Below, in pieces: positions 482-49,231 of a DNA stretch of 64,000 nt. The notes beneath the pieces are model-generated. The model made no database searches. It had not been told where the DNA came from and worked only from the letters and a program-made list of their open reading frames with translations. A program made the position numbers and the translations under genes. The DNA lies in contig OZ025248.1 in the NCBI GenBank assembly GCA_964019135.1, positions 75,088,119 through 75,152,118 on the forward strand. Reading direction: 5' to 3'. The stretch comes from Arenicola marina. Taxonomy: Eukaryota > Annelida > Polychaeta > Arenicolidae. Within the stretch, counting starts at the first letter, position 1. The number at the start of each line of letters is the position of its first letter.

Positions 482-3400
482 TCCCAACTACAGGAAGACA
501 TACACTGACTGGTTCCCGGCCTAAAGCTCCCAACTACAGGACGCCATACACTGCCTGGTTCCCGGCCTACAGCTCCCAACTACAGGAAGACATACACTGA
601 CTGGTTCCCGGCCTACAGCTCCCAACTACAGGACGCCATACACTGCCTGGTTCCCGGCCTACAGCTCCCAACTACAGGAAGACATACACTGACTGGTTCC
701 CGGCCTACAGCTCCCAACTACAGGAAGACATACACTGCCTGGTTCTCGGCCTACAGCTCCCAACTACAGGACGCCATACACTGACTGGTTCCCGGCCTAC
801 AGCTCCCAACTACAGGAAGCCATACACTGACTGGTTTCCGGCCTACAGCTCCCAACTACAGAAAGCCATACACTGACTGGTTCCCGGCCTACAGCTCCCA
901 ACTACAGGAAGACATACACTGACTGGTTCCCGGCCTACAGCTCCCAACTACAGGACGCCATACACTGACTGGTTCCCGGCCTACAGCTCTCAACTACAGG
1001 AAGCCATACACTGACTGGTTCCCGGCCTACAGCTCCCAACTACAGGAAGCCATACACTGACTGGTTCCCGGCCTACAGCTCCCAACTACAGGAAGCCATA
1101 CACTGACTGGTTCCCGGCCTACAGCTCCCAACTACAGGAAGACATACACTGACTGGTTCCCGGCCTACAGCTCCCAACTACAGGAAGAGGTACCCTGACT
1201 GGTTCCCGGCCTACAACTCCCAACTACAGGAAGACATACACTGACTGGTTCCCGGCCTACAGCTCCCAACTACAGGAAGCCATACACTGACTGGTTCCCG
1301 GCCTACAGCTCCCAACTACAGGAAGCCATACACTGACTGGTTCCCGGCCTACAGCTCCCAACTACAGGAAGGAAGCCATACACTGCCTGGTTCTCGGCCT
1401 ACAACTCCCAACTACAGGAAGACATACACTGCCTGGTTCCCGGCCTACAGCTCCCAACTACAGGAAGCCATACACTGACTGGTTCTCGGCCTACAAATCC
1501 CAACTACAGGAAGACATACACTGACTGGTTCCCGGCCTACAGCTCCCAACTACAGGAAGAGATACACTGACTGGTTCCCGGCCTACAGCTCCAAACTACA
1601 GGAAGCCATACACTGACTGGTTCCCGGCCTACAGCTCCCAACGACAGGAAGCCATACACTGCCTGGTTCTCGGCCTACAACTCCCAACTACAGGAAGACA
1701 TACACTGCCTGGTTCCCGGCCTACAGCTCCCAACTACAGGAAGCCATACACTGACTGGTTCTCGGCCTACAACTCCCAACTACAGGAAGAGATACCCTGA
1801 CTGGTTCCCGGCCTACAGCTCCCAACTACAGGAAGACATACACTGACTGGTTCCCGGCCTACAGCTCCCAACTACAGGAAGCCATACACTGACTGGTTCC
1901 CGGCCTACAGCTCCCAACTACAGGAAGCCATACACTGCCTGGTTCCCGGCCTACAGCTCCCAACTACAGGAAGACATACACTGCCTCGTTCCCGGCCTAC
2001 AGCTCCCAACTACAGGAAGCCATACATTGACTGGTTCCCGGCCTACAGCTCCCAACTACAGGAAGCCATACACTGCCTGGTTCTCGGCCTACAACTCCCA
2101 ACTACAAGAAGAGATACCCTGACTGGTTCCCGGCCTACAGCTCCCAACTACAGGAAGACATACACTGCCTGGTTCCCGGCCTACAGCTCCCAACTACAGG
2201 AAGCCATACACTGACTGGTTCTCGGCCTACAGCTCCCAACTACAGGAAGACATACACTGCCTGGTTCTCGGCCTACAACTCCCAACTACAGGACGCCATA
2301 CACTGCCTGGTTCTCGGCCTACAGCTCCCAACTACAGGAAGACATACACTGACTGGTTCCCGGCCTACAGCTCCCAACTACAGGAAGACATACACTGACT
2401 GGTTCTCGGCCTACAGCTCCCAACTACAGGACGCCATACACTGCCTGGTTCTCGGCCAACAGCTCCCAACTACAGGAAGACATACACTACCTGGTTCTCG
2501 GCCTACAGCTCCCAACTACAGGACGCCATACACTGCCTGGTTCCCGGCCTACAGCTGACAACTACAGGAAGACATACACTGACTGGTTCCCGGCCTACAG
2601 CTCCCAACTACAGGAAGCCATACACTGACTGGTTCCCGGCCTACAGCTCCCAACTACAGGAAGACATACACTGACTGGTTCCCGGCCTACAGCTCCCAAC
2701 TACAGGAAGCCATACACTGACTGGTTCTCGGCCTACAAATCCCAACTACAGGAAGACATACACTGACTGGTTCCCGGCCTACAGCTCCCAACTACAGGAA
2801 GAGATACACTGACTGGTTCCCGGCCTACAGCTCCAAACTACAGGAAGCCATACACTGACTGGTTCTCGGCCTACAGCTCCCAACTACAGGACGCCATACA
2901 CTGCCTGGTTCTCGGCCAACAGCTCCCAACTACAGGAAGACATACACTACCTGGTTCTCGGCCTACAGCTCCCAACTACAGGACGCCATACACTGCCTGG
3001 TTCCCGGCCTACAGCTGACAACTACAGGAAGACATACACTGACTGGTTCCCGGCCTACAGCTCCCAACTACAGGAAGACATACACTGACTGGTTCCCGGC
3101 CTACAGCTCCCAACTACAGGAAGAGGTACCCTGACTGGTTCCCGGCCTACAACTCCCAACTACAGGAAGACATACACTGACTGGTTCCCGGCCTACAGCT
3201 CCCAACTACAGGAAGCCATACACTGACTGGTTCCCGGCCTACAGCTCCCAACTACAGGAAGCCATACACTGACTGGTTCCCGGCCTACAGCTCCCAACTA
3301 CAGGAAGGAAGCCATACACTGCCTGGTTCTCGGCCTACAACTCCCAACTACAGGAAGACATACACTGCCTGGTTCCCGGCCTACAGCTCCCAACTACAGG

Positions 3401-6400
3401 AAGCCATACACTGACTGGTTCTCGGCCTACAAATCCCAACTACAGGAAGACATACACTGACTGGTTCCCGGCCTACAGCTCCCAACTACAGGAAGAGATA
3501 CACTGACTGGTTCCCGGCCTACAGCTCCAAACTACAGGAAGCCATACACTGACTGGTTCCCGGCCTACAGCTCCCAACGACAGGAAGCCATACACTGCCT
3601 GGTTCTCGGCCTACAACTCCCAACTACAGGAAGACATACACTGCCTGGTTCCCGGCCTACAGCTCCCAACTACAGGAAGCCATACACTGACTGGTTCTCG
3701 GCCTACAACTCCCAACTACAGGAAGAGATACCCTGACTGGTTCCCGGCCTACAGCTCCCAACTACAGGAAGACATACACTGACTGGTTCCCGGCCTACAG
3801 CTCCCAACTACAGGAAGCCATACACTGACTGGTTCCCGGCCTACAGCTCCCAACTACAGGAAGCCATACACTGCCTGGTTCCCGGCCTACAGCTCCCAAC
3901 TACAGGAAGACATACACTGCCTCGTTCCCGGCCTACAGCTCCCAACTACAGGAAGCCATACATTGACTGGTTCCCGGCCTACAGCTCCCAACTACAGGAA
4001 GCCATACACTGCCTGGTTCTCGGCCTACAACTCCCAACTACAAGAAGAGATACCCTGACTGGTTCCCGGCCTACAGCTCCCAACTACAGGAAGACATACA
4101 CTGCCTGGTTCCCGGCCTACAGCTCCCAACTACAGGAAGCCATACACTGACTGGTTCTCGGCCTACAGCTCCCAACTACAGGAAGACATACACTGCCTGG
4201 TTCTCGGCCTACAACTCCCAACTACAGGACGCCATACACTGCCTGGTTCTCGGCCTACAGCTCCCAACTACAGGAAGACATACACTGACTGGTTCCCGGC
4301 CTACAGCTCCCAACTACAGGAAGACATACACTGACTGGTTCTCGGCCTACAGCTCCCAACTACAGGACGCCATACACTGCCTGGTTCTCGGCCAACAGCT
4401 CCCAACTACAGGAAGACATACACTACCTGGTTCTCGGCCTACAGCTCCCAACTACAGGACGCCATACACTGCCTGGTTCCCGGCCTACAGCTGACAACTA
4501 CAGGAAGACATACACTGACTGGTTCCCGGCCTACAGCTCCCAACTACAGGAAGCCATACACTGACTGGTTCCCGGCCTACAGCTCCCAACTACAGGAAGA
4601 CATACACTGACTGGTTCCCGGCCTACAGCTCCCAACTACAGGAAGCCATACACTGACTGGTTCTCGGCCTACAAATCCCAACTACAGGAAGACATACACT
4701 GACTGGTTCCCGGCCTACAGCTCCCAACTACAGGAAGAGATACACTGACTGGTTCCCGGCCTACAGCTCCAAACTACAGGAAGCCATACACTGACTGGTT
4801 CTCGGCCTACAGCTCCCAACTACAGGACGCCATACACTGCCTGGTTCTCGGCCAACAGCTCCCAACTACAGGAAGACATACACTACCTGGTTCTCGGCCT
4901 ACAGCTCCCAACTACAGGACGCCATACACTGCCTGGTTCCCGGCCTACAGCTGACAACTACAGGAAGACATACACTGACTGGTTCCCGGCCTACAGCTCC
5001 CAACTACAGGAAGACATACACTGACTGGTTCCCGGCCTACAGCTCCCAACTACAGGAAGAGGTACCCTGACTGGTTCCCGGCCTACAACTCCCAACTACA
5101 GGAAGACATACACTGACTGGTTCCCGGCCTACAGCTCCCAACTACAGGAAGCCATACACTGACTGGTTCCCGGCCTACAGCTCCCAACTACAGGAAGCCA
5201 TACACTGACTGGTTCCCGGCCTACAGCTCCCAACTACAGGAAGGAAGCCATACACTGCCTGGTTCTCGGCCTACAACTCCCAACTACAGGAAGACATACA
5301 CTGCCTGGTTCCCGGCCTACAGCTCCCAACTACAGGAAGCCATACACTGACTGGTTCTCGGCCTACAAATCCCAACTACAGGAAGACATACACTGACTGG
5401 TTCCCGGCCTACAGCTCCCAACTACAGGAAGAGATACACTGACTGGTTCCCGGCCTACAGCTCCCAACTACAGGAAGCCATACACTGACTGGTTCCCGGC
5501 CTACAGCTCCCAACGACAGGAAGCCATACACTGCCTGGTTCTCGGCCTACAACTCCCAACTACAGGAAGACATACACTGCCTGGTTCCCGGCCTACAGCT
5601 CCCAACTACAGGAAGCCATACACTGACTGGTTCTCGGCCTACAACTCCCAACTACAGGAAGAGATACCCTGACTGGTTCCCGGCCTACAGCTCCCAACTA
5701 CAGGAAGACATACACTGACTGGTTCCCGGCCTACAGCTCCCAACTACAGGAAGCCATACACTGACTGGTTCCCGGCCTACAGCTCCCAACTACAGGAAGC
5801 CATACACTGCCTGGTTCCCGGCCTACAGCTCCCAACTACAGGAAGACATACACTGCCTCGTTCCCGGCCTACAGCTCCCAACTACAGGAAGCCATACATT
5901 GACTGGTTCCCGGCCTACAGCTCCCAACTACAGGAAGCCATACACTGCCTGGTTCTCGGCCTACAACTCCCAACTACAAGAAGAGATACCCTGACTGGTT
6001 CCCGGCCTACAGCTCCCAACTACAGGAAGACATACACTGCCTGGTTCCCGGCCTACAGCTCCCAACTACAGGAAGCCATACACTGACTGGTTCTCGGCCT
6101 ACAGCTCCCAACTACAGGAAGACATACACTGCCTGGTTCTCGGCCTACAACTCCCAACTACAGGACGCCATACACTGCCTGGTTCTCGGCCTACAGCTCC
6201 CAACTACAGGAAGACATACACTGACTGGTTCCCGGCCTACAGCTCCCAACTACAGGAAGACATACACTGACTGGTTCTCGGCCTACAGCTCCCAACTACA
6301 GGACGCCATACACTGCCTGGTTCTCGGCCAACAGCTCCCAACTACAGGAAGACATACACTACCTGGTTCTCGGCCTACAGCTCCCAACTACAGGAAGCCA

Positions 6401-7990
6401 TACACTGACTGGTTCCCGGCCTACAGCTCCCAACTACAGGAAGACATACACTGACTGGTTCCCGGCCTACAGCTCCCAACTACAGGAAGAGGTACCCTGA
6501 CTGGTTCCCGGCCTACAACTCCCAACTACAGGAAGACATACACTGACTGGTTCCCGGCCTACAGCTCCCAACTACAGGAAGCCATACACTGACTGGTTCC
6601 CGGCCTACAGCTCCCAACTACAGGAAGCCATACACTGACTGGTTCCCGGCCTACAGCTCCCAACTACAGGAAGGAAGCCATACACTGCCTGGTTCTCGGC
6701 CTACAACTCCCAACTACAGGAAGACATACACTGCCTGGTTCCCGGCCTACAGCTCCCAACTACAGGAAGCCATACACTGACTGGTTCTCGGCCTACAAAT
6801 CCCAACTACAGGAAGACATACACTGACTGGTTCCCGGCCTACAGCTCCCAACTACAGGAAGAGATACACTGACTGGTTCCCGGCCTACAGCTCCAAACTA
6901 CAGGAAGCCATACACTGACTGGTTCCCGGCCTACAGCTCCCAACGACAGGAAGCCATACACTGCCTGGTTCTCGGCCTACAACTCCCAACTACAGGAAGA
7001 CATACACTGCCTGGTTCCCGGCCTACAGCTCCCAACTACAGGAAGCCATACACTGACTGGTTCTCGGCCTACAACTCCCAACTACAGGAAGAGATACCCT
7101 GACTGGTTCCCGGCCTACAGCTCCCAACTACAGGAAGACATACACTGACTGGTTCCCGGCCTACAGCTCCCAACTACAGGAAGCCATACACTGACTGGTT
7201 CCCGGCCTACAGCTCCCAACTACAGGAAGCCATACACTGCCTGGTTCCCGGCCTACAGCTCCCAACTACAGGAAGACATACACTGCCTCGTTCCCGGCCT
7301 ACAGCTCCCAACTACAGGAAGCCATACATTGACTGGTTCCCGGCCTACAGCTCCCAACTACAGGAAGCCATACACTGCCTGGTTCTCGGCCTACAACTCC
7401 CAACTACAAGAAGAGATACCCTGACTGGTTCCCGGCCTACAGCTCCCAACTACAGGAAGACATACACTGCCTGGTTCCCGGCCTACAGCTCCCAACTACA
7501 GGAAGCCATACACTGACTGGTTCTCGGCCTACAGCTCCCAACTACAGGAAGACATACACTGCCTGGTTCTCGGCCTACAACTCCCAACTACAGGACGCCA
7601 TACACTGCCTGGTTCTCGGCCTACAGCTCCCAACTACAGGAAGACATACACTGACTGGTTCCCGGCCTACAGCTCCCAACTACAGGAAGACATACACTGA
7701 CTGGTTCTCGGCCTACAGCTCCCAACTACAGGACGCCATACACTGCCTGGTTCTCGGCCAACAGCTCCCAACTACAGGAAGACATACACTACCTGGTTCT
7801 CGGCCTACAGCTCCCAACTACAGGACGCCATACACTGCCTGGTTCCCGGCCTACAGCTGACAACTACAGGAAGACATACACTGACTGGTTCCCGGCCTAC
7901 AGCTCCCAACTACAGGAAGACATACACTGACTGGTTCCCGGCCTCAGTTCTTGACTACTGGAAGTCACACACTGGCTGGTTTCCGGCCTC
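482..7990. repeat. 46-bp satellite, about 162 units, with higher-order structure
   Basis: The unit is tcccaactacaggaagacat, then acactgactggttcccggcc, then tacagc (46 bp). Common variants are gacgcc for gaagac, ctgcc for ctgac, and ctcgg for cccgg. The last unit, about 7945-7990, is strongly diverged, as is usual at satellite edges. A private 4-bp insertion (ggaaggaagcc) recurs at 1367, 3303, 5239 and 6669: spacings 1936, 1936 and 1430 bp, that is 42, 42 and 31 units plus 4 bp. The unit length is not divisible by three and no long frame is open. It lies downstream of the ASK gene. Confidence 0.97.
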
Positions 7991-8936: not shown

Positions 8937-8940
8937 TACT

Positions 8941-9515
8941 GGGCCGCCTTTACCGTACACCCTCAGTCCTGGGACCGCCTCTACCATACAGCCTCAGTCC
9001 TGGGGCCGCCTCTACCATACACCCTCAGTCCTGGGGCCGCCTCTACCATACACCCTCAGTCCTGGGGTCGCCTCTACCATACACCCTCAGTCCTGGGCCG
9101 CCTCTACCATACACCCTCAGTCCTGGGGCCGCCTCTATCATACACCCTCAGTCCTGGGGTCGCCTCTACCATACACCCTCAGTCCTGGGCCGCCTCTACC
9201 ATACACCCTGAGTCCTGGGCCGCCTCTACCATACACCCTCAGTCCTGGGGCCGCCTCTACCATACACCCTCAGTCCTGGGGCCGCCTCTACCATACACCC
9301 TCAGTCCTGGGGCCGCCTCTACCATACACCCTCAGTCCTGGGGCCGCCTCTACCATACACCCTCAGTCCTGGGGCCGCCTCTACCATACACCCTCAGTCC
9401 TGAGGCCGCCTCTACCATACACCCTCAGTCCTGGGCCGCCTCTACCATACACCCTGAGTCTTGGGCCGCCTCTACCATACACCCTCAGTCCCGGGGCTGC
9501 CTCTACCAGTCTACC
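8941..9515. repeat. 31-bp minisatellite, about 18 units
   Basis: Unit ggggccgcctctaccataca followed by ccctcagtcct, with 30-bp variants that have one G fewer. The last units (about 9455-9515) decay. Open frames in three registers arise from the repeat and carry no recognisable domain. Confidence 0.93.
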
Positions 9516-10110
9516 ATTCGGCTGTGCCCCGTCAGTTAGCTCTATCCACGCACCCGTCACATAACACCAGGTATCCAATGTCCCTGTATAGATCCAGTTA
9601 TAAGGCAGTGTATCAACAAGGCGAGGATCGACAATAAAATATAAACGCAGTAGTAGCAGTTTTCAGTTAAAATTGTCAAGTGATACTATGTGACTTCCAT
9701 AAACTCAACCACCGTCCGTACTTTTGATTTCACCCAACAAGCAGTACTGCAGTAGTAATAGTAAACACCCAGTCACGGACATCATACGTAATAGCACCAA
9801 TATATCCAGGTATTTACATGAAAGTTGTCTACGGATAGATCACAAGGTGGTCAGCTAAACGTCACACTATTTCTTACATTATCTATAGAACAGAGATGCA
9901 GCGGAAAAAGGTTTAAAAACAGGTTGGGTTGCGCAATCCAAACGAAATCGCAGATATAAATATTATCACGTACAGTTATTTATTAGTGTACACATCTTTT
10001 AAGCTACACTAATAAACATTTGCTTGATTTTCGTAATTAAAACCAGAGTATAGACCATAACATGGAGTGGTGTATACCAAGAATTAAATCAGGAGCCAGA
10101 GAACAGGCTG
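9516..10110. other. Unique spacer, no gene seen
   Basis: AT-rich single-copy sequence between two minisatellites. No exon, RNA gene or repeat was recognised. Confidence 0.5.
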
Positions 10111-11480
10111 GGCTCACAGCAGAGGATAATAGACGATGTGGCTCACAGCAGAGGAGAATAGACGATGTGGCTCACAGCAGAGGAGAATAGACGATGTGAT
10201 CACAGCAGAGGAGAATAGACGATGTGGCTCACAGCAGAGGAGAATAGACGATGTGATCACAGCAGAGAATAGACGATGTGGCTCACAGCAGATAATAGAC
10301 AATGTGGTTCACAGCAGAGAATAGACGATGTGGTTCACAGCAGAGGATAATAGACGATGTGGCTCACAGCAGAGGAGAATAGACGATGTGGCTCACAGCA
10401 GAGGAGAATAGACGATGTGATCACAGCAGAGAATAGACGATGTGGCTCAGCAGATAATAGACGATGTGGTTCACAGCAGAGAATAGACGATGTGGTTCAC
10501 AGCAGAGAATAGACGATGTGGTTCACAGCAGAGAATAGACGATGTGGCTCACAGCAGATAATAGACGATGTGGTTCACAGCAGAGAATAGACGGTGTGGT
10601 TCACAGCAGAGAATAGACGATGTGGTTCACAGCAAAGAATAGACAATGTGGTGCACAGCAAAGAATAGACGATGTGGCTCACAGCAGATAATAGACGATG
10701 TGGTTCACAGCATAGAATAGACGATGTGGCTCACAGCAGATAATAGACGATGTGGTTCACAGCATAGAATAGACGATGTGGTTCACAGCAGAGAATAGAC
10801 GATGTGGTTCACAGCAAAGAATAGACAATGTGGTGCACAGCAAAGCATAGACGATGTGGCTCACAGCAGAGAATAATAGGCCATGTGGTCACAGCAGAGA
10901 ATAGACGATGTGGCTCACAGCAGATAATAGACGATGTGGTTCACAGCAGAGAATAGACGGTGTGGCTCACAGCAGAGAATAGACGATGTGCTTCACAGCA
11001 GAGAATAGACGATGTGGTTCACAGCAGAGAATAGACGATGTGGCTCACAGCAGAGAATAGACGATGTGGTTCACAGCATAGAATAGACGATATGGTTCAC
11101 AGCAGAGAATAGACGATATGGTTCCCAGCAGAGAATAGACGATGTGGTTCACAGCAGAGAATAGACGATGTGGTTCACAGCAGAGAATAGACGATGTGGC
11201 TCACAGCAGAGAATAGACGATGTGGTTCACAGCAGAGAATAGACGATATGGTTCACAGCAGAGAATAGACAATATGGTTCACAGCAGATAATAGACGATG
11301 TGGCTCACAGCAGAGAATAGACGATGTGGTTCACAGCAGAGAATAGACGATGTGGTCACAGCAGAGAATAGACGATGTGGTTTACAGCAGAGAATAGACG
11401 ATGTGGTTCATACCAGCGACTATGCAATGTGGTTCATAGCTTGGAATAGGAAATGGGACATAGCAGAGAATAGACGATTT
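10111..11480. repeat. 26-bp minisatellite, about 50 units
   Basis: Unit agaatagacgatgtggttca followed by cagcag. Units of 29 bp (aggagaatag..) dominate the left end, and shorter units lacking parts of ggctcac are scattered. The right end (11405-11480) is degenerate. There is no coding signal. Confidence 0.93.
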
Positions 11481-11928
11481 ATGACTTAGATTCCCTTACT
11501 CACGTAAGTTACATCGAGGGTTTTGCGACTATGTGTTAATCCTCCAACAAGGGACAGATCACGCATACACAGGGGTAAGGCGGCGGCTCTCACAGCAAGG
11601 ACAATCTGGGCACCCACGACAGCCGGACTTCATCGCTGGGTTATTCGTAGAACGCATACAGACTTAATTACGGGGCCACTGGGGCACACCCACACTGACT
11701 AATCAATATCTAACGAAACTAACTACGGAACAACATATTCAACAATTAATACTGACCCTGTCGTTACACAGGAAGAAACACACACAAAACACTGTACAGC
11801 TTGGATATTAGGTAAAACAAAAGGCTTCTTCATTGTATGTACAGATATGAGAGCGCCTTCGCGGAGAGGGGCGCGGGAAATATTTATACAGGAGGGACGG
11901 GGGAGGAGAGGCTAGATGTATGTACAAC
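11481..11928. other. Unique spacer, no gene seen
   Basis: Single-copy sequence. It falls in the likely 3' UTR or downstream region of the ASK gene, but no feature can be fixed. Confidence 0.45.
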
Positions 11929-12296
11929 GGTTGCCATGTCAAGTGTGACGTCTGTTGCAATGTTGTCATGTTAGGCATGACGTCCGTCCATGGTTGCCAT
12001 GTCAGGCATGACGTCCGTCCGTGGTTCAGGCATGACGTCCGTCCATGGTTGCCATGTCAGGCATGACGTCCGTCCGTGGTTCAGGCATGACGTCCGTCCA
12101 TGGTTGCCATGTCAGGCATGACGTCCGTCCGTGGTTCAGGCATGACGTCCGTCCGTGATTGCCATGTCAGGCATGCCGTCCGTCCGTGGTTTCCATGTCA
12201 GGCTTGACAGCCGGTTGTGGTTTCCATGTCAGGCCTGACAGCCGGTTGTGGTCGCAATGTCAGGCATGACGTCCGTCTGTGGTTGCCATGTCAGAC
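11929..12296. repeat. Irregular array rich in TGACGTCC
   Basis: Repeats built from ggttgccatgtcaggcatga and cgtccgtcc alternate with a shorter form lacking the gccatgtc part. TGACGTCC, which contains a CRE/ATF half-site, occurs about ten times. It lies immediately downstream of the amplified terminal exon on the gene strand. Regulatory function is not shown by sequence alone. Confidence 0.8.
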
Positions 12297-12362
12297 CTCT
12301 CGTTGTGTGTAGCTCCCTGACGACTGATGTGACCTGATGTCCTATGTCGGAGCGTTGTCGTT

Positions 12363-14146
12363 CTGTGTCACCTGCCTTCGATGTTCAGCAATGGTTTCCC
12401 ATAGCCTGCACAGCATTCCCCCTCTACAAGTACAACACACTATATTCAGCAATGGCTTCCCATAGCCTGCACAGCATTCCCCCTCTACAAGTACAACACA
12501 CCATATTCAGCAATGGCTTCCCATAGCCTGCACAGCATTCCCCCTCTACAAGTACAACACACTATATTCAGCAATGGCTTCCCATAGCCTGCACAGCATT
12601 CCCCCTCTACAAGTACAACACACTATATTCAGCAATGGCTTCCCATAGCCTGCACAGCATTCCCCCTCTACAAGTACAACACACTATATTCAGCAATGGT
12701 TTCCCATAGCCTGCACAGCATTCCCCCTCTACAAGTACAACACACTATATTCGGCAATGGCTTCCCATAGCCTGCACAGCATTCCCCCTCTACAAGTACA
12801 AACACACTATATTCAGCAATGGCTTCCCATAGCCTGCACAGCATTCCCCCTCTACAAGTACAAACACACTATATTCAGCAATGGCTTCCCATAGCCTGCA
12901 CAGCATTCCCCCTCTACAAGTACAAACACACTATATTCAGCAATGGCTTCCCATAGCCTGCACAGCATTCCCCCTCTACAAGTACAACACAATATATTCA
13001 GCAATGGTTTCCCATAGCCTGCACAGCATTCCCCCTCTACAAGTAGAACACACTATATTCAGCAATGGCTTTCCATAGCCTGTACAGCATTCCCCTTCTA
13101 CAAGTACAACACACTATATTCAGCAATGGCTTCCCATAGCCTGTACAGCATTCCCCCTCTACAAGTACAACACACTATATTCAGCAATGGCTTCCCATAG
13201 CCTGTACAGCATTCCCCCTCTACAAGTACAACACACTATATTCAGCAATGGCTTCCCATGGCCTATACAGCATTCCCCCTCTACAAGTACAACACACTAT
13301 ATTCAGCAATGGCTTCCCATAGCCTGTACAGCATTCCCCCTCTACAAGTACAACATACTATATTCAGCAATGGCTTCCCATGGTCTATACAGCATTCCCC
13401 CTCTACAAGTACAACACACTATATTCAGCAATGGCTTCCCATAGCCTGTACAGCATTTCCCGTCTACAAGTACAACACACTATATTCAGCAATGGCTTCC
13501 CATAGCCTGTACAGCATTCCCCGTCTACAAGTACAACACACTATATTCAGCAATGGCTTCCCATAGCCTGTACAGCATTCCCCCTCTACAAGTACAACAC
13601 ACTATATTTAGCAAAGGCCTTACCATAGCCTATACAGCATTCCCCCTCTACAAGTACAACACACTATATTCAGCAATGGCTTCCCATAGCCTGTACAGCA
13701 TTCCCCCTCTACAAGTACAACACACTATATTTAGCAAAGGCCTTACCATAGCCTATACAGCATTCCCCCTCTACAAGTACAACACACTATATTCAGCAAT
13801 GGCTTCCCATAGGCTGTACAGCATTCCCCCTCTACAAGTACAACACACTATATTCAGCAATGGCTTCCCATAGCCTGTACAGCATTCCCCCTCTACAAGT
13901 ACAACACACTATATTCAGCAATGGCTTCCCATAGCCTGTACAGCATTCCCCCTCTACAAGTACAACACAATATATTCAGCAATGGCTTCCCATATCTTGC
14001 ACAGCATTCCCCCTCTACAAGTACAACATACTATATTCAGCACTGGCTTCCCATAGCCTGTACAGCATTCCCCGTCTACAAATCATGACAAGAGTACATT
14101 TCATCGTTCCCCGTGGGCTACACAGCCTCCTCCCCTACAAGTAACT
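12363..14146 (-). repeat. 61-bp array of amplified terminal exon, about 28 copies
   Basis: Units of 61 bp (five single-base insertions give some 62-bp units) run from about 12386 to 14075: 28 acceptor positions between 12423 and 14075. A more diverged 29th copy with a one-base deletion lies at about 14105-14146. On the minus strand each unit is acceptor tract, AG, then a 61-nt coding stretch ending in TAG. Copies fall into a Cys type (TGC; about 12386-13060 and the copy at 13954-14014) and a Tyr type (TAC; about 13080-13960 and 14015-14075). Three consecutive copies near 12800-12930 carry an extra A that removes the TAG from frame. Plus-strand open frames across the array are shadows. Confidence 0.85.
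13954..14014 (-). CDS. Ask1: ASK homologue terminal exon, representative copy
   Basis: One unit of the 61-bp array read as the last coding exon. The acceptor is gtacttgtag on the minus strand. The first base A completes Arg with the AG left by exon k; the exon then reads GGMLCKIWEAIAEYIVLYL and stops at TAG, exactly 61 nt. Human ASK1 has RGGMLCTLWKAI at this point, so RGGMLC, the W and the AI agree and the SAM-like domain is completed. The neighbouring copy at 14015-14075 reads RGMLYRLWEASAEY.., with Gly replaced by Arg and Ile by Ser, so this one looks the better preserved of the two nearest exon k. Which copy is actually spliced cannot be told from sequence. Confidence 0.65.
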
Positions 14147-14190
14147 AAAAGCACTGACTGTGACAGTGATTTCAGCGGAATAGATAGATG

Positions 14191-14250
14191 GGTGGATTGG
14201 TATTTTAGGCCACCTTTTCGCACACAAGTGTTAAACCGGGCCTGCACGAA
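14191..14250 (-). mobile_element. Retroelement 3'-tail fragment
   Basis: On the minus strand the fragment reads ..cacttgtgtgcg..ggtggcctaaaataccaatc. It aligns over about 55 bp with the insertion at 47607-47713, and its end resembles the tail of the SINE at 14460-14725 (cctaaatatacaaccaacc). It abuts the donor of exon k. Probably the 3' end of a truncated SINE or LINE copy. Confidence 0.5.
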
Positions 14251-14251
14251 C

Positions 14252-14328
14252 CTGATGGTCAGCCTCCGTAGGTCCTCCCTGGTCACCCAGTTCAGCAGGT
14301 GACGCTTCGTGAATTTTTCCACGATCAA
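14252..14328 (-). CDS. Ask1: ASK homologue exon k (SAM-like domain, middle helices)
   Basis: A 77-nt exon with acceptor gttatccag and donor gttcgt. It encodes LIVEKFTKRHLLNWVTREDL followed by RRLTI and two bases (AG). It matches ASK1 FLAEDYTLLDVLYYVTRDDL followed by KCLRL; the VTR(E/D)DL block is diagnostic. The remaining SAM helix (RGGMLCTLWKAI in ASK1) must come from a further exon starting with one base. That sequence is found in the 61-bp array immediately downstream. The donor lies one or two bases from a retroelement-tail fragment. Confidence 0.94.
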
Positions 14329-14459
14329 CTGGATAACAAAGACAGAAATACCATAGTCAATATATAACTCAGTAAGGTGCCATAGAACGACACAAGGTAG
14401 ATTTCACAAGCTGCACATACATTTTCGACCATAACGCAGGGGCTAACTTCCATGATACT

Positions 14460-14725
14460 GCGGGGCCGGCCCGGTAGCTCAATGGTTCAGAGCGCCCGCC
14501 TTGAGCGCTCTGGCCACCTGAGAGCCTAACGGCACGTGGATCGGTGGTTCGCGCCCCGCTGTGGCCATGTCTGTGTGGTCGCAGGATAAAGATCCAATGT
14601 CTTTCTTCGCAAAGAGTAGGTGGTTACCCCCGGGGACATGGCTCCACTCTCCCTTCCTGCTCCCATTGACGCGATATGACCAAACGTGGTTAAAGTCCTA
14701 AATATACAACCAACCAACCAACCAA
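14460..14725 (+). mobile_element. tRNA-derived SINE, about 265 bp
   Basis: The tRNA-like head starts near ggggccggcccggtagctca, with A box TAGCTCAATGG and B box GGTTCGCGCCC at about 14546. A unique body of about 150 bp follows, ending taaagtcctaaatatacaac and a (CAAC)n-type tail at about 14706-14725. The sequence ccatgat lies both just before the head (14450) and at the tail end (14726), consistent with a short target-site duplication. It sits in the intron between exons j and k, opposite to the gene. Confidence 0.8.
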
Positions 14726-14769
14726 CCATGATGCCGCCAGCTACAGGCTTCAGTGGGGACGCCACTCAC

Positions 14770-14849
14770 CTTGTCAATGGTATCCTGATCAATGTCAAGC
14801 TTCTGCAGCCACTCCACCATCGCCATGTCAACGCGGTCCGCCGGAGCAG
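14770..14849 (-). CDS. Ask1: ASK homologue exon j (SAM-like domain, first helices)
   Basis: An 80-nt exon with acceptor tgttatag and donor gtgagtg. It encodes APADRVDMAMVEWLQKLDID followed by QDTIDK. This matches the start of the ASK1 C-terminal SAM-like domain, SELTDWLRVNGADEDTISRF: the VEWL/TDWL tryptophan and the acidic D-x-DTI element are both present. It starts with two bases completing Ala and ends in phase 0. A tRNA-derived SINE sits in the 441-bp intron that follows. Confidence 0.93.
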
Positions 14850-14967
14850 CTATAACACAAACTCCGAATTATACCTCCCGTTACATATTCGCACTAGCAC
14901 TACAATACAAATCCCAAATCGCACCATCTTAGTCATGATGACCTGTTTGGCTTCAATCGCCGTCAAT

Positions 14968-15026
14968 GATAACGACCACGTGGTAATTATAACGACCACG
15001 TGGTCATTATAACGACCACGTGGTAC
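14968..15026. repeat. 20-bp repeat x3 with CACGTG palindromes
   Basis: Three copies of ataacgaccacgtggt with spacers of four bases, in the intron between exons i and j. Each contains the palindrome accacgtggt and so a canonical E-box (CACGTG). Confidence 0.85.
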
Positions 15027-15310
15027 TTTATATTGAATCCGAATAAAAGGAGGACAGATTAAATCTGGTTACAAATAGCTATAAATCCAATTGGACGAAA
15101 AAGAAAAAAAAATCGCCAAGAAATAAATCAAGTGCACAGAAATTGCTCTAAATTTCTCGGGGAAACTAATATGCATACAGTACTTGGTCGATTGGACGCC
15201 TCTACCTGATATGGCACACACACACCAACAGAACAGTGCACGCGTGTGTATGTAAAAGTAAAACAAATACTGAAAAAAGTGTCCAGAAAAGAGTTTAGGG
15301 TACCACTTAC

Positions 15311-15417
15311 CGGATCTGTCGTCTACGGTGTCCCCGGCGTCTCCACCCCCACCGACCGCCCCCAGCTGCCTGGTCTCACTAGCGCTCCTGGGTAACCCGG
15401 GGGAGGCACCAAACGTC
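15311..15417 (-). CDS. Ask1: ASK homologue exon i (Gly/Ser linker)
   Basis: A 107-nt exon with acceptor ccccacag and donor gtaagtg. It encodes the linker between coiled coil and SAM-like domain: TFGASPGLPRSASETRQLGA, then VGGGGDAGDTVDDRS. The sequence is poorly conserved, as expected for this segment (in ASK1 the region around LKSQPIEIPELPVFHLNSSG). It is accepted because its borders are canonical and its phases (one base in, one base out) fit exons h and j exactly. Confidence 0.85.
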
Positions 15418-15757
15418 CTGTGGGGAGGACGACAAACATACAGCATACAGGCCACAGTATGAGGTAGAGTATGATACGGTTATTCGTAAGCTACGACCTC
15501 AGACCCAACATAAATGCACAGCTCTTTGTACTAAACCATTTTGTTTATGTTTTTGTCTTCGTACTCAATTTACAAGTTACATACATCATATAGTAACTAC
15601 ATCGTGGGGCATAACATATATTCGCTTCATATAGCCTTGTAGCGTTGACATAGTGGTGTGAGCACCAAGACGATTCTTCCTTTAATGTCATTGAGGCTCT
15701 GATAGCATCCAATACAAATGAAGTGGCCTGTCCAAGCAGTGTGCCGGCGGTACTCAC

Positions 15758-15850
15758 TTCAGCAGTGTGATTTGCTGGTCTTTCCCGTCGAGAGTGGTTT
15801 TCAACAAGCTTTGGTACGACTTCTGAGATTCTATCAGCCTTTCCAACAAT
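15758..15850 (-). CDS. Ask1: ASK homologue exon h (coiled coil)
   Basis: A 93-nt exon with a strong acceptor (ttttttacaattttcag) and donor gtgagta. It encodes R-LLERLIESQKSYQSLLKTTL followed by DGKDQQITLLK. It matches ASK1 RLLEELVRKEKELQALLHRA followed by IEEKDQEIKHLK, the C-terminal coiled coil used for self-association. The leucine spacing fits a heptad pattern. It starts by completing Arg from exon g and ends with AA, completed to Lys by exon i, so the match spans the 22,967-bp intron holding the 60-bp satellite. Confidence 0.95.
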
Positions 15851-15960
15851 CTGAAAATTGTAAAAAATGTAAATCGGGTGTTAGTCCGCTGTCTGGCACG
15901 TTAATGAACAGTATCCTCATTATTATGTCTCATTGTAAATACGTTTCTCAGGCCCCCTTG

Positions 15961-18900
15961 GAGCCTCCCTGGCTCACTTGGCGAGCTGGATGAGCTGCAG
16001 AACAACAGGTCGTGGGTTCGAACCCTCCCTGGCTCACTTGGTAAGCTGGATGAGCTGCAGAACAACAGGTCGTGGGTTCAAACCCTCCCTGGATCACTTG
16101 GTGAGCTGGATGAGCTGCAGAACAACAGGTCGTGGGTTCGAACCCTCCCTGGCTCACTTGGTGAGCTGGATGAGCTGCAGAACAAAAGGTCGTGGGTTCA
16201 AACCCTCCCTGGCTCACTTGGTGAGCTGGATGAGCTGCAGAACAACAGGTCGTGGGTTCGAACCCTCCCTGGCTCACTTGGTGAGCAGGATGAGCTGCAG
16301 AACAACAGGTCGTGGGTTCGAACCCTCCCTGGCTCACTTGGTGAGCTGGATGAGCTGCAGAACAATAGGTCGTGGGTTCGAACCCTCCCTGGCTCACTTG
16401 GTGAGCTGGATGAGCTGCAGAACAACAGGTCGTGGGTTCGAACCCTCCCTGGCTCACTTGGTGAGCTGGATGAGCTGCAGAACAACAGGTCGTGGGTTCG
16501 AACCCTCCCTGGCTCACTTGGTGAGCTGGATGAGCTGCAGAACAACAGGTCGCGGGTTCGAACCCTCCCTGGCTCACTTGGTGAGCTGGATGAGCTGCAG
16601 AACAATAGGTCGTGGGTTCGAACCCTCCCTGGCTCACTTGGTGAGCTGGATGAGCTGCAGAACAACAGGTCGTGGGTTCGAACCCTCCATGGCTCACTTG
16701 GTGAGCTGGATGAGCTGCAGAACAACAGGTCGTGGGTTCGAACCCTCCCTGGCTCACTTGGTGAGCTGGATGAGCTGCAGAACAATAGGTCGTGGGTTCG
16801 AACCCTCCCTGGCTCACTTGGTGAGCTGGATGAGCTGCAGAACAACAGGTCGTGGGTTCGAACCCTCCCTGGCTCACTTGGTGAGCTGGATGAGCTGCAG
16901 AACAATAGGTCGTGGGTTCGAACCCTCCATGGCTCACTTGGTGAGCTGGATGAGCTGCAGAACAACAGGTCGTGGGTTCGAACCCTCCCTGTCTCACTTG
17001 GTGAGCAGGATGAGCTGCAGAACAACAGGTCGTGGGTTCGAACCCTCCCTGGCTCACTTGGTGAGCTGGATGAGCTGCAGAACAATAGGTCGTGGGTTCA
17101 AACCCTCCCTGGCTCACTTGGTGAGCTGGATGAGCTGCAGAACAACAGGTCGTGGGTTCGAACCCTCCCTGGCTCACTTGGTGAGCTGGATGAGCTGCAG
17201 AACAACAGGTCGTGGGTTCGAACCCTCCCTGGCTCACTTGGTGAGCTGGATGAGCTGCAGAACAACAGGTCGTGGGTTCGAACCCTCCCTGGCTCACTTG
17301 GTGAGCTGGATGAGCTGCAGAACAATAGGTCGTGGGTTCGAACCCTCCCTGGCTCACTTGGTGAGCTGGATGAGCTGGATGAGCTGCAGAACAACAGGTC
17401 GTGGGTTCAAACCCTCCATGGCTCACTTGGTGAGCTGGATGAGCTGCAGAACAACAGGTCGTGGGTTCGAACCCTCCCTGGCTCACTTGGCCGGCTGGAT
17501 GAGCTGCAGAACAACAGGTCGTGAGTTCGAACCCTCCCTGGCTCACTTGGTAAGCTGGATGAGCTGGATGAGCTGCAGAACAACAGGTCGTGGGTTCGAA
17601 CCCTCCCTGGCTCACTTGGTGAGCTGGATGAGCTGCAGAACAACAGGTCGTGGGTTCGAACCCTCCCTGGCTCACTTGGCGAGCTGGATGAGCTGCAGAA
17701 CAACAGGTCGTGGGTTCGAACCCTCCCTGGCCCACTTGGTGAGCTGGATGAGCTGCAGAACAACAGGTCGTGGGTTCGAACCCTCCCTGGCTCACTTGGC
17801 GAGCTGGATGAGCTGCAGAACAACAGGTCGTGGGTTCGAACCCTCCCTGGCCCACTTGGTGAGCTGGATGAGCTGCAGAACAACAGGTCGTGGGTTCGAA
17901 CCCTCCCTGGCTCACTTGGTAAGCTGGATGAGCTGCAGAACAACAGGTCGTGGGTTCGAACCCTCCCTGGCCCACTTGGTGAGCTGGATGAGCTGCAGAA
18001 CAACAGGTCGTGGGTTCGAACCCTCCCTGGCTCATTTGGCGAGCTGGATGAGCTGCAGAACAACAGGTCGTGGGTTCGAACCCTCCCTGGCCCACTTGGT
18101 GAGCTGGATGAGCTGCAGAACAACAGGTCGTGGGTTCGAACCCTCCCTGGCTCACTTGGCGAGCTGGATGAGCTGCAGAACAACAGGTCGTGGGTTCGAA
18201 CCCTCCCTGGCCCACTTGGTGAGCTGGATGAGCTGCAGAACAACAGGTCGTGGGTTCGAACCCTCCCTGGCTCACTTGGTAAGCTGGATGAGCTGCAGAA
18301 CAACAGGTCGTGGGTTCGAACCCTCCCTGGCTCACTTGGTGGGCTGGATGAGCTGCAGAACAACAGGTCGTGGGTTCGAACCCTCCCTGGCTCACTTGGT
18401 GAGCTGAATGAGCTGCAGAACAACAGGTCGTGGGTTCGAACCCTCCCTGGCTCACTTGGTGAGCTGGATGAGCTGCAGAACAACAGGTCGTGGGTTCGAA
18501 CCCTCCCTGGCTCACTTGGTGAGCAGGATGAGCTGCAGAACAACAGGTCGTGGGTTCGAACCCTCCCTGGCTCACTTGGTGAGCTGGATGAGCTGCAGAA
18601 CAATAGGTCGTGGGTTCGAACCCTCCCTGGCTCACTTGGTGAGCTGGATGAGCTGCAGAACAACAGGTCGTGGGTTCGAACCCTCCCTGGCTCACTTGGT
18701 GAGCTGGATGAGCTGCAGAACAACAGGTCGTGGGTTCGAACCCTCCCTGGCTCACTTGGTGAGCTGGATGAGCTGCAGAACAACAGGTCGCGGGTTCGAA
18801 CCCTCCCTGGCTCACTTGGTGAGCTGGATGAGCTGCAGAACAATAGGTCGTGGGTTCGAACCCTCCCTGGCTCACTTGGTGAGCTGGATGAGCTGCAGAA

Positions 18901-39345: not shown

Positions 39346-39619
39346 AGATATAAAGATAGACATAAACACAGCCAGATTTACAAATAAATCGAAGTAAATT
39401 AATTTGCAGCATGACAACTAGTTCAACAGTCATTTTCACAGGTGAACTTCTGTGGCCACGATCTGTTTAAAACGAGGAAATAAAAAAACCCAAAAAAAAC
39501 GAGGCGATGACCTCTCGGAGACGAGATCACCACACGTAGGCCACGAGGCGGCCACCAGTTCGTCCCAGGTCTCCACCACAGCCACGTGCGGCCTCCATTG
39601 GCGCATGCGCTCTCCTTAC

Positions 39620-39725
39620 CGGGTGTGAGGATGTTGAGGGCGGCCTGGGAGGCGCCCCGCAGCAGGGTGTCGAGGGCAAACATCCAGTGGGGCTGGATGT
39701 GGCGCTGCTTCAGAATGAGGCTCAC
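39620..39725 (-). CDS. Ask1: ASK homologue exon f (HWMFALD signature)
   Basis: A 106-nt exon, acceptor cttgtag, donor gtaagg. It encodes VSLILKQRHIQPHWMFALDT, then LLRGASQAALNILTP. The human ASK1 counterpart is VNKVLRNHNIKPHWMFALDS, then IIRKAVQTAITILVP. The PHWMFALD core is an ASK-family signature and identifies the gene by itself. It starts in phase 0 and ends with one base. Confidence 0.97.
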
Positions 39726-40016: not shown

Positions 40017-40268
40017 CAGAATACCAGGCATTGTCTAAGTCTCACATCAAGCCAAACCAATGCAGCACGAACAATTATATATCAGTAGCACGTATTATTG
40101 TTTTTATTTCCTTATTTTGTGTGTCGTTTGCGGTGGGAGGTGGGGGGCAGGGGATTATTTTTTAATGTATTTTCATGTATAAACTTGTATATATATATTT
40201 CAAGCTTGGCTTTAAGCAGAAATTCTCGTCACTGACCGCAGAATACAGATTCAGTTCAGATTACTCAC

Positions 40269-40348
40269 AGCCTCTTGGAAGACGTAGACGGCGAGTTGCA
40301 GCTCATTGCAGGACCCCATGTCGAAGTCCATCTCCTCTTTCAACCGAT
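40269..40348 (-). CDS. Ask1: ASK homologue exon e
   Basis: An 80-nt exon, acceptor actcag, donor gtgagta. Two initial bases complete Asp with the G from exon d, then it encodes RLKEEMDFDMGSCNELQLAV followed by YVFQEA. This matches ASK1 KLKLELDFDSHGISQVQVVL followed by FGFQDA, a helical part of the C-terminal regulatory region. It lies 543 bp upstream of exon f and 86 bp from the start of the 52-bp satellite. Confidence 0.95.
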
Positions 40349-40433
40349 CTGAGTTCCAGAGAACAGACATCATGCACATAAAACACGCACACCATATTCA
40401 TATGATGGCCCAGCGTAACTCAGATATCAAGGT

Positions 40434-43400
40434 ATAATGGTAACCTGTTGCATGGGTACTGGCTAGACTGGTGAAACCCTAGACCATAATGATAACCTGT
40501 TACATGGGTACTGACTAGACTGGTGAAACCCTAGACCATAATGATAACCTGTTACATGGGTACTGACTAGACTGGTGAAACCCTAGACCATAATGATAAC
40601 CTGTTACATGGGTACTGACTAGACTGGTGAAACCCCAGACCATAATGATAACCTGTTACATGGGTACTGACTAGACTGGTGAAACCCTAGACCATAATGA
40701 TAACCTGTTACATGGGTACTGACTAGACTGGGGAAACCCTAGACCATAATGATAACCTGTTACATGGGTACTGGCTAGACTGGTGAAATCCTAGACCATA
40801 ATGATAACCTGTTACATGGGTACTGACTATACTGGTCAAACCCTAGACCATAAAGATAACCTGTTACATGGGTACTGACTAGACTGGTGAAATCCTAGAC
40901 CATAAAGATAACCTGTTACATGGGTACTGACTAGACTGGTGAAACCCTAGACCATAAAGATAACCTGTTACATGGGTACTGACTAGACTGGTGAAACCCT
41001 AGACCATAATGATAACCTGTTACATGGGTACTGACTAGACTGGTGAAACCCTAGACCCCAATGATAACCTGTTACATGGGTACTGACTAGACTGGTGAAA
41101 CCCTAGACCATAATGATAACCTGTTACATGGGTACTGACTAGACTGGTGAAACCCTAGACCATAATGATAACCTGTTACATGGGTACTGACTAGACTGGT
41201 GAAACCCTAGACCATAATGATAACCTGTTACATGGGTACTGACTAGACTGGTGAAACCCTAGACCATAATGATAACCTGTCACATGGGTACTGACTAGAC
41301 TGGTGAAACCCTAGACCATAATGATAACTTGTTACATGGGTACTGACTAGACTGGTGAAACCCTAGACCATAATGATAACCTGTTACATGGGTACTGACT
41401 AGACTGGTGAAACCCTAGACCACAAAGATAACCTGTTACATGGGTACTGACTAGACTGGTGAAACCATAGACCATAATGATAACCTGTTACATGGGTACT
41501 GGCTAGACTGGTGAAACCCTAGACCATAATGATAACCTGTTACATGGGTACTGACTAGACTGGTGAAACCCTAGACCATAAAGATAACCTGTTACATGGG
41601 TACTGACTAGACTGGTGAAACCCTAGACCATAATGATAACCTGTTACATGAGTACTGACTAGACTGGTGAAACCCTAGACCATCAAGATAACCTGTTACA
41701 TGGGTACTGACTAGACCGGAGAAACCCTAGACCATAATGATAACCTGTTACATGGGTACTGACTAGACTGGTGAAACCCTAGACCATAAAGATAACCTGT
41801 TACATGGGTACTGATTATACTGGTGAAACCCTAGACCATAAAGATAACCTGTTACATGGGTACTGACTAGACCGGAGAAACCCTAGACCATAAAGATAAC
41901 CTGTTACATGGGTACTGACTATACTGGTGAAACCCTAGACCATAATGGTAACCTGTTACATGGGTACTGACTAGACTGGTGAAACCCTAGACCATAAAGA
42001 TAACCTGTTACATGGGTACTGACTAGACTGGGGAAACCCTAGACCATAAAGATAACCTGTTACATGGGTACTGACTAGACTGGTGAAACCCTAGACCATA
42101 ATGATAACCTGTTACATGGGTACTGACTAGACTGGTGAAACCCTAGACCAAAATGATAACCTGTTACATGGGTACTGGCTAGACTGGTGAAACCCTAGAC
42201 CATAATGATAACCTGTTACATGGGTACTGACTAGACTGGTGAAACCCTAGACCACAATGATAACCTGTTACATGGGTACTGACTAGACTGGTGAAACCCT
42301 AGACCATAATGATAACCTGTTACATGGGTACTGACTATACTGGTGAAACCCTAGACCATAATGATAACCTGTTACATGGGTACTGACTAGAATGGTGAAA
42401 CCCTAGACCATAAAGATAACCTGTTACATGGGTACTGACTAGACTGGTGAAACCCTAGACCATAATGATAACCTGATACATGGGTACTGACTAGACTGGT
42501 GAAACCCTAGACCATAATGATAACCTGATACATGGGTACTGACTATACTGGTGAAACCCTAGACCATAATGATAACCTGTTACATAGGTACTGACTAGAC
42601 TGGTGAAACCCTAGACCATAATGATAACCTGTTACATGGGTACTGACTATACTGGTGAAACCCTAGACCATAATGATAACCTGTTACATGGGTACTGACT
42701 AGAATGGTGAAACCCTAGACCATAAAGATAACCTGTTACATGGGTACTGACTAGACTGGTGAAACCCTAGACCATAATGATAACCTGATACATGGGTACT
42801 GACTAGACTGGTGAAACCCTAGACCATAATGATAACCTGATACATGGGTACTGACTAGACTGGTGAAACCCTAGACCATAATGATAACCTGATACATGGG
42901 TACTGACTAGACTGATGAAACCCTAGACCATAATGATAACCTGTTACATGGGTACTGACTATACTGGTGAAACCCTAGACCATAATGATAACCTGTTACA
43001 TGGGTACTGACTAGAATGGTGAAACCCTAGACCATGAAGATAACCTGTTACATGGGTACTGACTAGACTGGTGAAACCCAAGACCATAATGATAACCTGT
43101 TACATGGGTACTGACTAGACTGGTGAAACCCTAGACCATAAAGATAACCTGTTACATGGGTACTGACTAGACTGGTGAAACCCTAGACCATAAAGATAAC
43201 CTGTTACATGGGTACTGACTAGACTGGTGAAACCCTAGACCATAATGATAACCTGTTACATTCGTACTGACTAGACTGGTGAAACCCTAGACCATAATGA
43301 TAACCTGTTACATGGGTACTGACTAGACTGGTGAAACCCTAGACCATAAAGATAACCTGTTACATGGGTACTGACTAGACTGGTGAAACCCTAGACCACA

Positions 43401-46400
43401 ATGATAACCTGTTACATGGGTACTGACTAGACTGGTGAAACCCTAGACCATAATGATAACCTGTTACATGGGTACTGACTAGACTGGTGAAACCCTAGAC
43501 CAGAAAGATAACCTGTTACATGGGTACTGACTAGACTGGTGAAACCCTAGACCATAATGATAACCTGTTACATGGGTACTGACTAGACTGGTGAAACCCT
43601 AGACCATAAAGATAACCTGTTACATGGGTACTGACTATACTGGTGAAACCCTAGACCATAATGGTAACCTGTTACATGGGTACTGACTAGACTGGTGAAA
43701 CCCTAGACCATAAAGATAACCTGTTACATGGGTACTGACTAGACTGGTGAAACCCTAGACCATAATGATAACCTGTTACATGGGTACTGACTAGACTGGT
43801 GAAACCCTAGACCACAATGATAACCTGTTACATGGGTACTGGCTAGACTGGTGAAACCCTAGACCATAATGATAACCTGTTACATGGGTACTGACTAGAC
43901 TGGTGAAACCCTAGACCATAAAGATAACCTGTTACATGGGTACTGACTAGACTGGTGAAACCCTAGACCATAAAGATAACCTGTTACATGGGTACTGGCT
44001 AGACTGGTGAAACCCTAGACCATAATGATAACCTGTTACATGGGTACTGACTAGACTGGTGAAACCCTAGACCATAATGATAACCTGTTACATGGGTACT
44101 GACTAGACTGGTGAAACGCTAGACCATAATGATAACCTGTTACATGGGTACTGACTAGACTGGTGAAACCCTAGACCATAATGATAACCTGTTACATGGG
44201 TACTGACTAGACTGGTGAAACCCTAGACCATAATGATAACCTGTCACATGGGTACTGACTAGACTGGTGAAACCCTAGACCATAATGATAACTTGTTACA
44301 TGGGTACTGACTAGACTGGTGAAACCCTAGACCATAATGATAACCTGTTACATGGGTACTGACTAGACTGGTGAAACCCTAGACCACAAAGATAACCTGT
44401 TACATGGGTACTGACTAGACTGGTGAAACCCTAGACCATAATGATAACCTGTTACATGGGTACTGGCTAGACTGGTGAAACCCTAGACCATAATGATAAC
44501 CTGTTACATGGGTACTGACTAGACTGGTGAAACCCTAGACCATAAAGATAACCTGTTACATGGGTACTGACTAGACTGGTGAAACCCTAGACCATAATGA
44601 TAACCTGTTACATGAGTACTGACTAGACTGGTGAAACCCTAGACCACAAAGACAACCTGTTACATGGGTACTGACTATACTGGTGAAACCCTAGACCATA
44701 AAGATAACCTGTTACATGGGTACTGACTAGACCGGTGAAACCCTAGACCATAATGATAACCTGTTACATGGGTACTGACTAGACTGGTGAAACCCTAGAC
44801 CATAAAGATAACCTGTTACATGGGTACTGACAATACTGGTGAAACCCTAGACCATAATGGTAACCTGTTACATGGGTACTGACTAGACTGGTGAAACCCT
44901 AGACCATAAAGATAACCTGTTACATGGGTACTGACTAGACTGGTGAAACCCTAGACCACAAAGATAACCTGTTACATGGGTACTGACTAGACCGGTGAAA
45001 CCCTAGACCATAATGATAACCTGTTACATGGGTACTGACTAGACTGGTGAAACCCTAGACCAAAATGATAACCTGTTACATGGGTACTGGCTAGACTGGT
45101 GAAACCCTAGACCATAATGATAACCTGTTACATGGGTACTGACTAGACTGGTGAAACCCTAGACCACAATGATAACCTGTTACATGGGTACTGACTAGAC
45201 TGGTGAAACCCTAGACCATAATGATAACCTGATACATGGGTACTGACTAGACTGGTGAAACCCTAGACCATAAAGATAACCTGTTACATGGGTACTGACT
45301 AGACTGGTGAAACCCTAGACCATAATGATAACCTGTTACATGGGTACTGACTAGAATGGTGAAACCCTAGACCATAAAGATAACCTGTTACATGGGTACT
45401 GACTAGACTGGTGAAACCCTAGACCATAATGATAACCTGTTACATGGGTACTGACTAGACTGGTGAAACCCTAGACCATAATGATAACCTGTTACATGGG
45501 TACTGACTAGACTGGTGAAACCCTAGACCATAATGATAACCTGTTACATGGGTACTGACTAGACTGGTGAAACCCTAGACCACAATGACAACCTGTTACA
45601 TGGGTACTGACTAGACTGGTGAAACCCTAGACCACAATGATAACCTGTTACATGGGTACTGGCTAGACTGGTGAAACCCTAGACCATAAAGATAACCTGT
45701 TACATGGGTACTGACTAGACTGGTGAAACCCTAGACCATAATGATAACCTGTTACATGGGTACTGACTAGACTGGTGAAACCCTAGACCATAAAGATAAC
45801 CTGTTACATGGGTACTGACTAGACTGGTGAAACCCTAGACCATAAAGATAACCTGTTACATGGGTACTGACTAGACTGGTGAAACCCTAGACCATAATGA
45901 TAACCTGTTACATGGGTACTGACTAGACTGGTGAAACCCTAGACCATAAAGATAACCTGTTACATGGGTACTGACTAGACTGGTGAAACCCTAGACCATA
46001 AAGATAACCTGTTACATGGGTACTGACTAGACTGGTGAAACCCTAGACCACAATGATAACCTGTTACATGGGTACTGACTAGACTGGTGAAACCCTAGAC
46101 CATAATGATAACCTGTTACATGGGTACTGACTAGACTGGTGAAACCCTAGACCAGAAAGATAACCTGTTACATGGGTACTGACTAGACTGGTGAAACCCT
46201 AGACCATAATGATAACCTGTTACATGGGTACTGACTAGACTGGTGAAACCCTAGACCATAAAGATAACCTGTTACATGGGTACTGACTATAGTGGTGAAA
46301 CCCTAGACCATAATGGTAACCTGTTACATGGGTACTGACTAGACTGGTGAAACCCTAGACCATAAAGATAACCTGTTACATGGGTACTGACTAGACTGGT

Positions 46401-49130: not shown

Positions 49131-49152
49131 CCGTCCCAGGGCCGCGACTCAC

Positions 49153-49231
49153 CGATGGCCAACTGGACGGCCTTGCTCTGCGGGTCCCGGATGTACTCCA
49201 TGAAGCCTTCCAGCAGTCGGTGCAGGTGTAC
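49153..49231 (-). CDS. Ask1: ASK homologue exon d, isolated between two satellites
   Basis: A 79-nt exon with acceptor ccgacag and donor gtgagtc. It encodes VHLHRLLEGFMEYIRDPQSK plus AVQLAI and one extra base. It aligns with ASK1 EHITTLIASLREFVRSTDRK followed by IIATTL. It is a single-copy island: the 52-bp satellite ends 22 bp beyond its donor side, and the 36-bp satellite starts about 54 bp beyond its acceptor side. Its correct splicing therefore depends on very short unique flanks. Frame and phase (0 in, 1 out) fit both neighbours. Confidence 0.93.

Follow-up and report, generated by a model that had tools for sequence, protein, structure and literature searches.

Coding minisatellites (VNTRs) occur in last exons, as in human CEL, and their repeats are read through within one exon. 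In the locus analysed here, too, the 3' coding end of a gene bears a tandem repeat, but each unit of this ASK gene holds a splice acceptor and usually a stop, so that mostly only one unit would be translatable. A second point of comparison is Drosophila pip, for which the excerpted account lists eight tandemly repeated clusters of mutually exclusive terminal exons (PMC9013439). As in pip so described, homologous 3'-terminal exons lie in tandem in one gene and any of them could end the transcript; unlike the pip clusters, the ASK repeats are 28 near-identical splice-junction fragments of 61-62 bp that form a satellite, they share a TAG that serves as stop and acceptor, and regulated choice is not indicated by the sequence (PMC9013439). 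Finally, excerpts of two studies link tandem genomic duplication to intron gain (PMC4974935, PMC3443670). There, as here, a tandem duplication within a gene bears on its splice sites, whereas in the ASK gene an existing 3' splice site has been multiplied and a new intron is not shown (PMC4974935, PMC3443670). Among the literature matches listed, no title describes a satellite made of the splice junction of a terminal exon, a result that does not prove absence. What is unusual against known terminal-exon clusters is the scale and form, the satellite monomer being a splice junction.

The window, by which we mean the whole stretch of 64,000 bases analysed, is judged eukaryotic by the genes in it; its minus strand carries the 3' portion of a MAP3K gene of ASK type. 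Two features place it with ASK (MAP3K5/6/15): a C-terminal SAM domain of ASK type and, upstream of the SAM exons, a HisK-N-like globin domain recognised by Pfam in the following fragments:

39426-39725, minus strand: PF20302 HisK-N-like globin fragment, 44.4 bits, above the Pfam cut-off of 27.8
40254-40397, minus strand: PF20302 fragment, single exon, 25.3 bits, under the cut-off of 27.8
56706-56930, minus strand: PF20302 fragment, single exon, 24.1 bits, under the cut-off of 27.8
49130-49252, minus strand: PF20302 fragment, single exon, 12.9 bits (E = 0.13), under the cut-off of 27.8

The SAM part of the gene and the repeat at its end are made up as follows:

14770-14849, minus strand: exon j of ASK, in which the SAM domain begins (AAPADRVDMAMVEWLQKLDIDQDTIDK), donor GTGAGT
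14252-14328, minus strand: exon k of ASK, LIVEKFTKRHLLNWVTREDLRRLTI plus the AG of a split Arg codon, donor GTTCGT, matching the ASK3 SAM domain
14135-14251, minus strand: non-array 5' part of the last intron, reaching the first unit-like acceptor
14076-14134, minus strand: probable decayed outermost copy, preceded by a retained ACTTGTAG; it would encode RGGGCVAHGER and stop, the helix being lost
12384-14075, minus strand: 61-bp satellite of 28 copies including the shared part of the native copy, each unit made of 40 nt of exon and the last 21 nt of the intron
12342-12423, minus strand: putative native last coding exon (3'-most copy), (R)GGMLCRLWETIAEHRRQVTQNDNAPT and stop

Exons j and k joined to the 3'-most copy match the SAM domain of ASK3 (MAP3K15; PDB 6v0m_A) with 61.0 bits (E = 6.2e-16) over residues 7-69 of 78. 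With an array copy as the last exon the score is 54.7 bits and the alignment ends at EYS, the gap to 61.0 bits being partly due to C/Y and T/A differences inside the helix; with the decayed copy at 14134 it is 36.3 bits and the alignment ends at RGG. In a Pfam scan of the peptide from j, k and the last copy, no SAM family reached an E of 1, and the sole match was HTH_Tnp_Tc5, below threshold (16.3 bits vs a cut-off of 22.2). Exons m, n, o, j, k and the copy at 12423 form a single open frame that ends ...WLQKLDIDQDTIDKLIVEKFTKRHLLNWVTREDLRRLTIRGGMLCRLWETIAEHRRQVTQNDNAPT and stop, a statement limited to these exons, with i and l outside it. The reading frame at 63875-64000, the sole one scanned from the region beyond 57000, where exons are not annotated, had no Pfam match. 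Exon k is preceded by TTATCCAG, and its last bases, CATCAG, stand directly before GTTCGT, so that it ends in the AG of a split codon just as the sequence-only reading had it. The open frame of exon k runs on into the last intron to 14101 (minus strand, 14101-14403), and intron retention after this exon would yield a different C-terminus.

Among the 11 exons of the gene examined, the last alone falls within a tandem array. TRF delimits this array at 12384-14081 (period 61, 27.8 copies, 95% matches), and we count 28 clean copies of 61-62 bp, head to tail and near-identical as in a satellite or minisatellite, with first exonic bases on the minus strand from 14075 to 12423. The exon part of the monomer (40 nt) encodes (R)GGML(C/Y)RLWEAIAE and the intron-end part (21 nt) reads TATAGTGTGTTGTACTTGTAG. 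It had been proposed that the whole terminal exon was amplified about 28 times together with its acceptor; the acceptor and the first 40 nt are indeed found in 28 clean copies, but of the native coding exon, 82 nt long with its stop, the monomer covers only 40 nt, to which 21 nt of intron are added, and the whole exon was not duplicated. The limits first given for the array, 12363-14146, also move slightly, the native coding end lying at 12342 and the outermost unit-like acceptor just before 14134. Every unit had further been credited with an AG acceptor, the completed Arg, the helix and a TAG stop. An AG stands directly before the unit in 28/28 copies, and each of the 28 completes the Arg codon begun by exon k. 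In 26 of them the frame then stays open through the last SAM helix for 15 aa or more; the strict pattern RGGML[CY]RLWE[AT]IAE is matched by 18 copies and failed by 10; and 22 reach a stop after 20 aa, at the TAG of the unit itself, while two stop early, three read on and one, the native copy, has its own end. With an acceptor, an in-frame coding part and a stop per copy, the units have the make-up of alternative terminal exons, and the tail YSVLYL of the array copies is translated intron sequence. The proposed correspondence of the unit to the last SAM helix is borne out by a BLOSUM62 score of 58 against the ASK3 helix, a value reached by 0 of 2000 dinucleotide shuffles (mean 18.9, maximum 37).

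The 3'-most copy (12423-12342) alone continues into non-array sequence (...IAEHRRQVTQNDNAPT and stop, 27 aa). Past the breakpoint its tail is EHRRQVTQNDNAPT and stop, and the other 27 copies are without this native end. Judging from this flank, 12423-12342 is the native last exon, because after a tandem duplication it is the last copy that still adjoins the original right-hand sequence. Within the tail, EHRRQ aligns with QYRRA of ASK3 (6v0m), a short match with few residues (RR) past the breakpoint. Copies tend to differ more from the native exon the farther away they lie (Spearman 0.68 over 25 copies, with 13770, 13647 and the native copy left out), and the copies share history, which makes the p-value only a guide. 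At the C/Y site, Cys, as in ASK3, occurs in 11/11 copies from 13036 to 12423 and in 14014, and Tyr in the remaining 16. That the copies near 12423 match the native exon best, and that the Cys shared with ASK3 clusters there, is consistent with a native exon at 12423-12342. The copy nearest exon k, at 14134, was considered as the native exon and rejected, as its helix is lost and the native end absent.

Both edges of the array run into non-array sequence. At the exon k side, the unit-like sequence at 14134 is probably a decayed copy, a moderately supported assignment (6 of 1000 mononucleotide shuffles score as high); in the right flank, 12383-12100, no additional copy is seen (score equalled or exceeded by 328 of 1000 shuffles). 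A blastn search of the rest of the window (12342-14140 masked, E up to 10) found no copy of the unit, the unmasked control giving 30 and 32 hits in two settings, and the unit core had 0 loci in viral contigs. The codon pattern for RGGMLCRLW has three MAG loci in prokaryote contigs, which have no ASK-like surroundings and stops close by and were taken as chance. Departures from the 61-bp unit are concentrated in two regions:

13586-13770, minus strand: region with two 62-bp variant copies (13770, 13647), TGGTAAGG, and the ordinary copy 13708 between them
12790-12975, minus strand: three 62-bp copies (12975, 12913, 12851) with an extra T before the acceptor

Copies 13770 and 13647, the same variant recurring at two-unit spacing, have a stop right after LW (TGG TAA). 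In copies 12975, 12913 and 12851 the TAG of the unit is out of frame and reading extends to 41, 41 and 61 aa. A donor-like TATGGTAAGG is also present in 13770 and 13647 (minus strand); splicing from the acceptor to this site, as computed for the 13770 copy plus a consensus unit, would give a 24-nt exon and then TGA in the next ordinary copy (RGGMLYRL and stop).

Tandem repeats of other kinds occupy much of the surroundings. An intron of the ASK gene holds a 60-bp satellite of ~378 copies (15964-38645; 95% matches, TRF), whose minus strand is open for 7567 codons and whose unit contains GGGTTCGAAC, which to us looks like a Pol III B box. Satellites at 40434-49130 (52 bp) and 49294-56096 (36 bp) flank exon h (49231-49153), their edges ~23 and ~63 bases away and neither overlapping the exon. 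The j-k intron includes, at 14440-14700, a dispersed-repeat-like stretch with a tRNA-like start (GGCCCGGTAGCTCAATGGTTCAGAGC, plus strand), and ARAGORN, run over the whole window in its bacterial-code setting, found no tRNA. Downstream of the stop codon of the gene lie tandem arrays at 482-7989, 8939-9508, 10114-11478 and 11929-12294, some of them possibly in the 3'UTR.

Altogether, the observed anatomy, frame, homology and special 3'-most copy lead us to favour, with good confidence, a junction-duplication satellite in an ASK-family MAP3K gene that is tolerated by finishing the domain in frame. In our model, a tandem duplication spanned the last intron-exon junction of the gene, taking in the 3' end of the intron and the first 40 nt of the exon, and the duplicated fragment then expanded into the 28-copy satellite, its 5' end retaining the native intron side and its 3'-most copy the native exon end and stop. 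The earlier suggestion that the satellite was seeded at the last ASK exon agrees with this, the acceptor being included and the strand and codon phase correct. The terminal TAG of a 61-bp unit serves at once as in-frame stop for its own copy and as acceptor for the next, because the unit length of 61 is 1 mod 3 and the intron is in phase 2. Splicing to most copies would complete a near-normal SAM helix followed by a short different tail and a stop, and the remaining copies would stay in the 3'UTR with no downstream junction. The duplication was most likely tolerated because the domain would still be completed in frame with most of the copies as last exon. We infer that the spliceosome may use array copies, that this tolerance would have let the array grow, and that most copies would be neutral. 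The copies nearest exon k are poor in this respect: a transcript spliced at the first unit-like acceptor, before 14134, would encode RGGGCVAHGER and stop, without the helix, and copy 14075 carries G to R and I to S.

A different account, which we regard as quite possible while placing it somewhat below even chances, is that only the native 3'-most acceptor, or one fixed acceptor, is used and the rest is inert intronic satellite descended from the exon edge; it shares its origin with the junction-duplication model, differs from it in splicing, and the probabilities of the two overlap. Variation among the copies bears on this account. The comparison took in 22 copies, all of 61 bp, and omitted the native copy and the five of 62 bp. 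Of 28 possible synonymous changes 3 are seen as distinct variants, and of 85 possible nonsynonymous ones 11 (Fisher p = 1.0); 12 of 40 exonic against 4 of 21 intronic sites vary (p = 0.54). No protein-level selection is visible among these 22 copies. The array looks neutral or homogenised, because there is no excess of synonymous change and exonic and intronic variability are similar. This missing constraint speaks for inert copies, as do the two copies with an early stop, but it is weak evidence in a homogenising array. The acceptors themselves point both ways. In 24/28 copies, against 2/10 other acceptors of the gene, another AG occurs no more than 20 nt upstream of the acceptor, which again suits an inert satellite, and use of that second AG at the native copy would give SVLYL and stop, without the helix. 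Against inertness, the 28 acceptors, among them the native one, are all intact and almost the same in sequence, the upstream ones are nearer the donor, and skipping 27 acceptors would need a cause. Pyrimidine content before the 28 acceptors is 0.56-0.69, within the 0.50-0.81 of the ten other acceptors of the gene, and GCTGA, which resembles the branch-point consensus, lies at most 40 nt before the acceptor in 24/28 copies.

Going beyond the junction-duplication model, the copies may be alternative terminal exons in use, the choice among them setting the tail (EHRRQVTQNDNAPT or YSVLYL) and the number of repeat units in the 3'UTR. We consider this unlikely. The array contains 26 AATATA hexamers, presumably weak poly(A) signals, and acceptor, Arg, helix and stop all fit into one 61-bp unit; tandem clusters of terminal exons have a precedent, as excerpted for Drosophila pip (PMC9013439). 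Set against these points are the lack of a selection signal, the unremarkable RNA fold of the one two-unit stretch folded (z = -0.45), and the lack of any AATAAA in the array, the first on the minus strand after the donor being at 9984 (14250-8000 scanned). An Rfam gathering scan of 9500-16500 gave no match. We are equally doubtful that the array would act as a working bank of equivalent 3' splice sites, with the spliceosome picking among many copies.

The copy number could partly be an assembly artefact, near-identical 61-bp copies being hard to assemble, but this is very improbable, as several copies bear their own variants in patterned order and both edges enter non-array sequence. That an unrelated satellite resembles the ASK C-terminus by chance, for which one might cite the 51,788 of 64,000 bases of the window that lie in tandem arrays, is refuted by the distance of the observed score from the shuffle maximum and by the position of the array at the right place, on the right strand and in the right codon phase, with a continuous exon frame.

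The oligomerisation of ASK1 is, in the excerpt of PMC10972558, presumed to involve a coiled coil and the SAM domain, so the altered protein end falls in a part that may matter. Most acceptors in the row would give almost the same protein end, and near-identical 3' splice sites behind one donor amount to a natural experiment in spliceosomal choice between equal acceptors. If the array does serve as a splice-site bank, it would make the ASK C-terminus robust to the loss of any one acceptor, and the tail peptide, as well as how much of the repeat remains in the 3'UTR, would depend on copy choice together with array length. In this signalling gene a satellite has been able to expand over a splice junction, and the gene is not obviously destroyed by it.
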